Notes under the pieces: generated by a model | The model's database searches: none | Seen by the model: only the letters and a program-made list of their open reading frames with translations | What the model was told of the DNA's origin: nothing | Program-made: the position numbers and the translations under genes | Part shown: positions 33,154 through 34,953 of the stretch, in pieces | How the letters are laid out: every line of letters begins with the position of its first letter | How positions within the stretch are numbered: position 1 is the first letter of the stretch | Assembly: GCF_900112245.1 (NCBI RefSeq) | Contig: NZ_FOYX01000002.1 | Coordinates: forward strand, 62,001 to 126,000 | Length of the DNA stretch: 64,000 nucleotides | Source: Maribacter stanieri | Lineage (GTDB): Bacteria; Bacteroidota; Bacteroidia; Flavobacteriales; Flavobacteriaceae | Direction of reading: 5' to 3'

Positions 33154-34455
33154 TTATCGTAATCGTAAAGGTTTAAAACTGATAAATACTATGGTGTAGA
33201 TGAATAATAGCGATAAATACCAGGTATTAGAGACCAAATCTAAGTAATCTATTCTTCCTTTAGAAAAGCTCAAAATCATTAAAACTTGTGCTCCATAAGG
33301 TAATAATCCTTGAAAAATACATGCGAAAATATCCAAGATTGAAGCGGTCTTTTTGTTATCCAGCTCATACTCATCATTAATTGTTTTGGCAATAGGGCCA
33401 GCGATAATTATAGATACGGTATTATTGGCTATCGCCATGTTAATGGTGCTCACCAATGTGGCAATACCTAACTGTGCCGTTTTTTTGTTTTTTATAAGCT
33501 TTTTTATGTTTACCAATATAAACTCTATCCCTCCATTTCGTTCTACCAAAGCTGCCAAACCACCGGTAAGTAACGACAATAAGAAAATTTCTGTCATGTT
33601 GGTAAATCCGGTATAGGCGATTTTAGTTGATTCCAAGAGGGTGAAATCGCCATATACAATTCCTAAGAGTCCTGCAAAAAGAGAGCCTAAAAGCAAAGTG
33701 ACAAAAACATTTACTCCTACAATAGAAAGGATAATCACTAATAGATAAGGCATAATTTTAATGACCGAATAGCTATAAACTACTGCCTCTGTTTCTCCGG
33801 ACCGTAATCCTAAACCTTGAAAAACCAAAATAGCGATAGTAAATAGGGCAGCGGGTACGGCAATTTTGATGTTCTGTTTAAACTTATCGCTCATTTTACA
33901 ACCTAATGATTGTGTTGCCGCAATTGTAGTGTCTGAAATAACGGATAAATTATCCCCAAACATACTACCACCTAATAGCGCCCCACATAAAATAGCTAAA
34001 TCAGCACCGCTCTTATCTGCAAATCCTACTACAATAGGAGCTAAAGCTACAATTGCACCTACAGAAGTCCCTGTAGAAACCGATAAAAATCCAGCAATGA
34101 TAAAGATGCCAACATAAATATATTGAATAGCTATATAATCTAAACCTAAATTTACTATTGCGTCTACACTACCGGTTTCATTGGTAATTGCCGCAAAGGC
34201 ACCTGCAAGCAAATAGATTAAACACATGGTTAGTATTTTATCATCGCCACAGCCTTTTAAAAGCGTTTTAATTTTAGAATTAATAGATTGTCTAAACAGT
34301 AAAAATGCAGCAATTATACCCACTATTACCGCAATGGGAGCTGGTAAAGCATAAAAGTCATTTTGGTATATACCAACACCTAAAAATGTAAATACGAATA
34401 TAAATAAGGGTATTAAGGCTGTAAATTTGGGAGTTCTGTCTTTTGCGTTTGCCAT
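33154..34455 (-). CDS. NhaC-family transporter, probable methionine transporter (MetT type)
   Basis: A 433-residue inner-membrane protein with about 11 hydrophobic segments and NhaC-family signatures (STGTSVGAIVALAP, GGSMFGDNLSVISDTT). The frame is open up to 34503, but the ATG at 34455 (MANAKDRTPKF) follows a purine-rich AAAGAAAGAA and fits the usual family start. NhaC members were described as Na+/H+ antiporters. One branch, MetT, was assigned to methionine uptake because its genes lie behind SAM riboswitches (Rodionov and co-workers). Here a SAM-I-like element lies at 34531-34594, which favours MetT. Confidence 0.82.
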   Translation of the reverse strand: MANAKDRTPKFTALIPLFIFVFTFLGVGIYQNDFYALPAPIAVIVGIIAAFLLFRQSINSKIKTLLKGCGDDKILTMCLIYLLAGAFAAITNETGSVDAIVNLGLDYIAIQYIYVGIFIIAGFLSVSTGTSVGAIVALAPIVVGFADKSGADLAILCGALLGGSMFGDNLSVISDTTIAATQSLGCKMSDKFKQNIKIAVPAALFTIAILVFQGLGLRSGETEAVVYSYSVIKIMPYLLVIILSIVGVNVFVTLLLGSLFAGLLGIVYGDFTLLESTKIAYTGFTNMTEIFLLSLLTGGLAALVERNGGIEFILVNIKKLIKNKKTAQLGIATLVSTINMAIANNTVSIIIAGPIAKTINDEYELDNKKTASILDIFACIFQGLLPYGAQVLMILSFSKGRIDYLDLVSNTWYLSLLFIYTIVFISFKPLRLR

Positions 34456-34530
34456 TTCTTTCTTTATTCTAAAAAGGAAATAGCTGCAAATAAGTAGACA
34501 CATGAGTTAACATTTGTTCCAATTAATTGG

Positions 34531-34594
34531 CTTATCTATTTAGCACCTTGCTTGTTATTGCAGGTTGCTATCTCCTTTTTGAGATTCTTGATAA
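34531..34594 (-). promoter_or_regulatory. Compact SAM-I-like riboswitch candidate
   Basis: On the minus strand, 75 nt before the transporter ATG, the SAM-I core words appear in order: TTATCAAGA (P1 and J1/2), a short hairpin ATCTC-loop-GAGAT in place of P2, then AGCAACC, a P3 hairpin (CCTGC with GCAAGG), AAGGTGCTAAAT and GATAA closing P1 with TTATC. Missing compared with canonical SAM-I: the P2b part with kink-turn and pseudoknot loop, and all of P4. Total about 64 nt. A CCAATTAATTGG palindrome follows at 34519-34530 and may belong to the expression platform. Ligand binding is inferred. Confidence 0.6.
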
Positions 34595-34953
34595 TTATTT
34601 AAGGCGGCAAATGTAGTGTATAATTCTTTCTTGTAAATCTTAAAATAAGTTAATTTACTTAGGTGGATCCAATGTCTAAACAAAAGCTATCCTATCCATT
34701 AAAATCGATAAAATCCCAAGGAATAAACATCCATATTAAGTATAAGGAATATTGATTTGGATACAACGGTAGGGTAGAGGGCTACCAACTTTTAATCGTT
34801 ACTTATCGTCAGATATTCTCAATTAAAAGTATCATTACTATAAAATTGTAGTGTCCTATAACAATTTTATTGATGCATTAAGCTTCTATTCTAGCTTAGA
34901 TTGTGATTTAATTTATTGAAGAAATTTACTTGTAACTGTAAAGGTCATATAAA
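34595..34953. other. Intergenic gap upstream of the riboswitch
   Basis: 359 nt between the aptamer and the end of the response-regulator gene. AT-rich, with no ORF above 30 codons that I would support. It should contain the promoter of the transporter and the regulator's 3' end signals, but I see no clear terminator hairpin. Confidence 0.4.

Follow-up and report, generated by a model that had tools for sequence, protein, structure and literature searches.

Background

SAM-I/IV riboswitches carry a pseudoknot between the loop of P3 and the 3' tail, and a crystal structure of the class was reportedly presented by Trausch et al. in 2014. The reference for the ligand core is the set of letters that SAM-I has at its SAM-contacting positions. 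SAM-I/IV variants without an internal loop in P2 are described in the available part of Weinberg et al. 2010 (PMC2864571), and the accessible text of Zhang et al. 2019 (PMC6890682) gives SAM-I/IV, compared with SAM-IV, an undivided P2 and no PK-1; an undivided P2 without a P2-loop pseudoknot is normal for SAM-I/IV. Because the Rfam model for this class, RF01725, holds no helix from P3 to the 3' strand of P1, we tentatively read the P4 of Zhang et al. as the 3' hairpin here named P5. The same source, in the text available, sees the differing peripheral structures of the clan as potentially accompanying different regulatory switch subdomains, and RF00162 is treated in a SAM riboswitch context in the accessible portion of PMC13273304.

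The element described here lies on the minus strand of the window, by which we mean the whole 64-kb stretch of Maribacter stanieri DNA that was analysed. It shares with SAM-I/IV (RF01725) P1, an undivided P2, P3, the 3' hairpin, the pseudoknot between P3 loop and tail, and the core letters, and none of its peculiarities—it is AT-rich, with a P2 of 5 bp and a pseudoknot of 5 bp—removes it from that class. Its ligand-core letters are also those of SAM-I (the S box, RF00162), from which it differs in lacking the P2 internal loop, the P2a/P2b division with its kink-turn, the P2-loop pseudoknot and the helix between P3 and P1 (P4). An S box precedes metT in C. perfringens, according to the available part of PMC2940859. 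SAM-IV (RF00634), as presented in the accessible text of PMC6890682, resembles the element in having P5 and a PK-2 between P3 loop and 3' tail, whereas the P2a/P2b split and PK-1 of SAM-IV are missing from the window element.

Class and anatomy of the aptamer

The sequence-only reading had placed at this site a minimal SAM-I-like aptamer, ending at 34531 and lacking a pseudoknot and P4, upstream of a transporter gene. An Rfam scan of the 64 kb instead returned a match to the whole of RF01725, with the following parts.

34503..34599, minus strand: whole SAM-I/IV aptamer (RF01725), Rfam match to model positions 1-99 of 99
34594-34590 with 34536-34532, minus strand: P1, UUAUC/GAUAA (alignments and fold)
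34585-34581 with 34574-34570, minus strand: P2, AUCUC/GAGAU, loop AAAAAG (alignments and fold)
34569-34567 and 34564-34560 with 34551-34550, 34548-34546 and 34544-34542, minus strand: P3, with internal AA (alignments)
34519..34530, minus strand: P5 hairpin, CCAA-UUAA-UUGG (97.9% of cells paired in the metT-type rows)
34508..34557, minus strand: pseudoknot of the P3 loop UAACA (34557-34553) with the tail UGUUA (34512-34508), covarying across relatives

The match (34599-34503) scored 64.6 bits against a curated cut-off of 41.1, with an E value of 2.1e-8, far beyond chance and in agreement with the earlier placement of the site in the SAM clan; the uniformly poor scores to SAM clan models that would have spoken against that placement did not occur. 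It was the sole Rfam match at curated cut-offs within the 64-kb window—RF00162, RF00634 and RF01724 (SAM-Chlorobi) gave none there—and at E <= 0.001 RF01725 matched nowhere else in the genome (4.46 Mb, 9 contigs). Since the full model is covered, the element belongs to a known class and is not a minimal variant; judged by its sequence, it is a SAM-I/IV riboswitch aptamer, a new member in an ordinary gene context. A new minimal SAM-I-like class without pseudoknot and P4 has next to no probability: while 34594-34531 by itself holds just P1, P2 and P3, such a class is ruled out by the end-to-end match, and the pseudoknot and P5 lie directly downstream. With the match to a known class, a minimal SAM variant at this site is no longer tenable, and neither is the suggestion that the element might be among the smallest members of the clan or a distinct variant.

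A permissive Rfam scan of 34400-34720 again put RF01725 at the top, with one weaker overlapping match to a family of the same clan. That scan also listed mir-283, rli43, MIR529 and tmRNA_permuted at the site, all under their own cut-offs; the mir-283 match lies on the opposite strand of the same stretch, whose two halves are mutually complementary. Two exact core patterns searched against viral_contigs found 0 stretches each.

Several details of the sequence-only reading hold. The SAM-I words occur on the minus strand in the order given, namely TTATCAAGA (34594-34586), AGCAACC (34569-34563), the P3 hairpin, AAGGTGCTAAAT and GATAA (34536-34532); P2 is indeed 5 bp long, undivided and free of an internal loop (AUCUC-AAAAAG-GAGAU); and the joint between P3 and P1, only 5 nt (34541-34537), leaves no space for P4. 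J1/2 is AAGA, and the core of P1, P2 and P3 spans 34532..34594. Beyond 34531, however, the element continues with the hairpin 34530-34519 and the tail 34512-34508, and pairing of this tail with the P3 loop contradicts the supposed absence of a pseudoknot. The P5 hairpin is only 50.9% paired (cells) in a diverse alignment, where its length varies and the alignment is poor.

At the SAM-contacting positions listed in the available text of PMC6890682, the window and all 56 metT-linked relatives have the core letters of SAM-I. Because the pattern used to parse the leaders itself contains the contact letters, this 56 is the same count and not separate evidence. A core that binds some ligand other than SAM is very unlikely, as the contact letters are those of SAM-I and the gene context is one of predicted methionine import. 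In favour of such a core, riboswitch aptamers can switch ligand by few mutations, and PMC10853860 reports that a close variant of a SAM aptamer forms a spermidine class.

Covariation and the pseudoknot

Two alignments were compared with shuffles. The first, A1, holds the window and 34 of 56 parsed metT leaders, hand-picked with near-duplicates left out; the second, A2, holds the window and 42 of 60 fetched genome elements, after exclusion of 11 near-duplicate metT elements and of 7 that were long or weak. These 60 comprise 58 of the 63 matches in a scan of 397 family genomes plus 2 from a scan of near relatives. In the 43 diverse rows, 84.5% of cells were paired versus 64.6% after shuffling, both-side changes occurred in 17 of 22 pairs (P5 pairs counted), and the covariation score was 0.452 versus 0.165, a value reached by 0 of 500 shuffles; since the RF01725 model served to find every A2 row, paired letters in P1, P2, P3 and P5 are favoured there. 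The 35 metT-type rows had 98.9% of cells paired (P5 and pseudoknot pairs counted), which 53 of 500 shuffles reached; as these rows are nearly invariant, their high pairing says little. The covariation that the sequence-only reading had proposed to test in P1, P2 and P3 is thus strong across Flavobacteriaceae but almost nil within the little-varying metT-linked group.

For the pseudoknot, both-side changes among relatives include GUAACG/CGUUAC, AACAC/GUGUU, ACUCGU/ACGAGU and UCUCGUU/AACGAGA. Across 99 distinct elements (from 117 parsed), loops paired with their own tails at a score of 9.97 versus 8.49 for permuted tails, and 0 of 2000 permutations scored as high. The own score was reached by 1 of 2000 permutations for 39 non-metT elements, and by 637 of 2000 for the metT-type group (n=60), because the pseudoknot barely varies there. 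Elements with the P3 loop GCACAAAAG (L122, L125, L130, L131, L139, L145 and L168-L170, the last with GCATAAAAG) show no clear P3-loop/tail pairing by permutation, yet match RF01725.

An ATG within the pseudoknot tail, shared by 46 of the 57 leaders, begins a frame of 14 codons in the window (MLTHVSTYLQLFPF) and might on that account be read as the start of a leader peptide (uORF) acting as an attenuator. We rejected this reading, which is highly improbable: the ATG is not universal, being replaced by ACG or TTG in 11 of the 57, its frame has only 3 codons in 4 leaders, the stop positions are scattered, and the pseudoknot accounts for the letters.

The downstream gene and its promoter

33154..34455, minus strand: NhaC-superfamily transporter, 433 aa, predicted methionine importer MetT (PF03553, 95.5 bits)
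34608..34615, minus strand: predicted Bacteroidetes-type -7 element TACATTTG (consensus match to TAnnTTTG)

The transporter reached 90 bits with TIGR00931, whose cut-off is 370, and is hence not NhaC proper. Its start is likely the ATG at 34455 (codon 34455-34453) and not 34503, judging by other loci: the longest frame begins at the matching ATG in eight of nine forward-lying metT loci, and the ninth (L012) shares the window's upstream extension. According to PMC2940859, MetT belongs to the NhaC superfamily, potentially transports methionine and has S boxes upstream; PMC4239095 treats it as a predicted sodium-dependent methionine permease. Here too, an NhaC-superfamily protein (PF03553) follows a SAM-type riboswitch (RF01725), which supports the earlier suggestion of a SAM-clan aptamer ahead of a gene of the MetT kind. 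The protein is probably a methionine importer, MetT, a name that draws on the riboswitch context and the literature.

We scanned 79 distinct loci from the best 80 of 126 relatives, whose hosts include Maribacter, Zobellia, Cellulophaga, Winogradskyella and Arenibacter. Within this set, RF01725 lies just upstream of the transporter in 56 of 57 closer relatives (L032-L088) and in 0 of 22 relatives at 40-43% identity; a separate letter-pattern search gave the same counts. The exception, L082, is the most distant of the closer relatives at 57% identity, the others standing at 73-99%. Before any gene, RF01725 was found in 25 of 120 near relatives and 54 of 397 family genomes, the genome studied being counted in both.

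Elsewhere in that genome are two RF00162 (SAM-I) matches, and the genes behind them, read by eye, encode an acetylhomoserine sulfhydrylase and the N-terminal part of MetH. No PF03180 MetQ-type lipoprotein was found in the genome, while 7 of 14 control genomes have one; given this and the two SAM-I switches at those genes, the importer is a sensible further target. The genome holds a second PF03553 protein elsewhere.

TAnnTTTG, quoted as the Bacteroides -7 motif in the accessible part of PMC2483708, occurs 19-25 nt upstream of the P1 AUC in 52 of 57 leaders, as a plain count. This placement suggests a predicted transcript start at or just before P1.

A putative switching segment between aptamer and start codon

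34471..34489, minus strand: switching segment UUGCA-GCUAUUUCCUUUUU, anti-aptamer against 34580-34567 and 34562-34558
34452..34483, minus strand: predicted start-codon hairpin over the AUG, formed by 34483-34471 and 34464-34452 (fold model)

Downstream of the aptamer, UUGCAGCUAUUUCCUUUUU (34489-34471) is complementary to the loop and 3' strand of P2 as well as to some of the 5' side of P3. The predicted anti-aptamer helix of the window has an energy of -24.1 kcal/mol against a shuffle mean of -10.9, and 0 of 200 shuffles were as good. Over 57 leaders, the mean z was -3.26; in 45 of them at most 10 of 200 shuffles were as good. In the other 12, where no anti-aptamer stands out clearly, more than 10 were, the worst leaders being L077, L060, L032, L076 and L034. 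When partners were permuted among 20 leaders, hand-chosen at up to two per genus, own partners averaged -18.28 versus -16.71 for permuted ones, and 2 of 5000 permutations were as good (0 of 5000 with 68 distinct leaders, 2 of 5000 with a 17-leader set). The effect is modest, in that the own partner on average equals or beats 62-67% of foreign partners (only 62% in the 20-leader set), and the leaders, being related, are not independent of one another. Offered the whole aptamer as target, the segment has a mean z that drops to -2.09, with 18 of 57 leaders beating all 60 shuffles; its main target is then P2 in 23 leaders and J2-3/P3 in 18 (together 41), and the stretch from P3 to the tail in 16. 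On A1, 75.0% of anti-aptamer cells are paired (28 of 500 shuffles reach this) with a covariation score of 0.154 (7 of 500), again modest.

The segment can also pair with the start region, as CUAUUUC/GAAAUGG in the window. In terms of predicted pairing, the downstream segment is therefore complementary both to the P2/P3 strands of the aptamer and to the start-codon region. The start-codon hairpin on A1 did not rise above column shuffles (202 of 500).

Exposure of the start was then calculated with a fold model that takes no account of pseudoknots or SAM. Across 57 leaders, mean exposure was 0.278 with the aptamer imposed and 0.411 unconstrained, the unconstrained value being higher in 52. Twenty sets with shuffled downstream sequence gave aptamer-imposed exposures of 0.423-0.526, well apart from the real 0.278, and a change on freeing the aptamer that ranged from -0.061 to +0.027, where the real leaders changed by +0.132. 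The unconstrained 0.411 is not above the shuffled range (0.402-0.490), so that without the aptamer the real leaders are no more open than chance, and the energy gap between free and imposed states does not differ (-5.90 real, -5.86 shuffled, 57 leaders). In the model, the whole of the exposure signal comes from how far the start is hidden when the aptamer is imposed.

For the window itself, the modelled start is closed both when the aptamer is imposed (exposure 0.00) and without constraint (0.01), its exposure reaches 0.76 when the anti-aptamer is imposed, and the anti-aptamer ensemble (-32.8) lies about 3 kcal/mol above that of the aptamer (-35.9). Growing prefixes behave differently from one another: those of 125, 131 and 141 nt favour the anti-aptamer, at 150 nt the aptamer and start hairpin return, and at 171 nt the predicted fold is mixed. 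As the window's start is closed even when unconstrained, the proposed switch would need a co-transcriptional choice there.

A SAM-I/IV riboswitch that acts on transcription, by termination or pausing at the CCUUUUU run, is unlikely. The switching segment does close with a U run (34475-34471), and the S box before metT in C. perfringens acts by premature transcription termination according to the available text of PMC2940859, but a scan confined to the window found 0 terminator-like sites in 34400-34660, in 45 of 57 leaders the end of the segment lies 11-17 nt ahead of the AUG, and the segment folds onto the start beyond the level of shuffles.

Other RF01725 elements in Flavobacteriaceae

Of the 60 fetched loci, 41 (within L114-L170) carry RF01725 elements of a second group, which precede mostly small unknown proteins rather than metT. 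Single cases lie before genes of mobile-element type, namely those for a VapE-like protein (L153), a phage-type integrase (L161) and an HTH_17 protein (L163, under the Pfam cut-off), and one before an N-formylglutamate amidohydrolase (L158); eight of the proteins were Pfam-scanned at fetched length, four without a match. Five of the 397 family genomes hold 2-4 RF01725 matches apiece.

In this group, a downstream strand is complementary to the 5' strand of P1 and J1-2 (L116, L125, L129, L148, L152, L159 and others), with a mean z of -2.28; over 41 elements, own partners averaged -10.29 versus -7.07 permuted, and 0 of 5000 permutations were as good. With the whole aptamer as target the P1-strand signal is not visible (mean z -0.35), so this test rests on a region picked after looking. 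The putative platform of the second group, with its P1-side strand, differs from that of the metT leaders.

Four further loci were read by eye. At L021:1501-1602 and L028:1501-1603, the tail UGUUUA and the ATG that opens the downstream frame share letters (AAAATGTTTAA), so that the pseudoknot itself could cover the start codon; the L021 frame appears interrupted. Behind the metT-type aptamer of L020 and L022, from family f5 genomes, no transporter frame is obvious at close range; P2 is different here, and its AGAUGGGA has a complement, UCCCAUCU, in a strand downstream.

Proposed mechanism and implications

We consider it probable that this SAM-I/IV riboswitch shuts off translation of the methionine importer at high SAM. 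Transcription would begin just ahead of P1. With SAM bound, P1, P2, P3 and the P3-loop/tail pseudoknot would stay together, and the segment 34489-34471 would be free to fold onto the AUG at 34455 and block initiation; without SAM, the segment would, on emerging from the polymerase, invade P2 together with the 5' strand of P3, and the AUG would stay open.

More tentatively, the platform may be one in which the downstream strand competes not for P1 but for P2/P3, the interior that binds the ligand, which it invades and with which it co-evolves, before handing over to the start-codon hairpin. It could thus possibly be a co-transcriptional translational off-switch common to flavobacterial metT genes, with sister SAM-I/IV RNAs before other genes using a different, P1-invading strand. 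In the literature searched, we found no description of an expression platform for SAM-I/IV in Bacteroidetes; the aptamer class is known, and the platform may be new. The locus would give a full-length, testable model of SAM-I/IV in Bacteroidetes—promoter, aptamer, switching strand and start codon—together with 56 natural variants.
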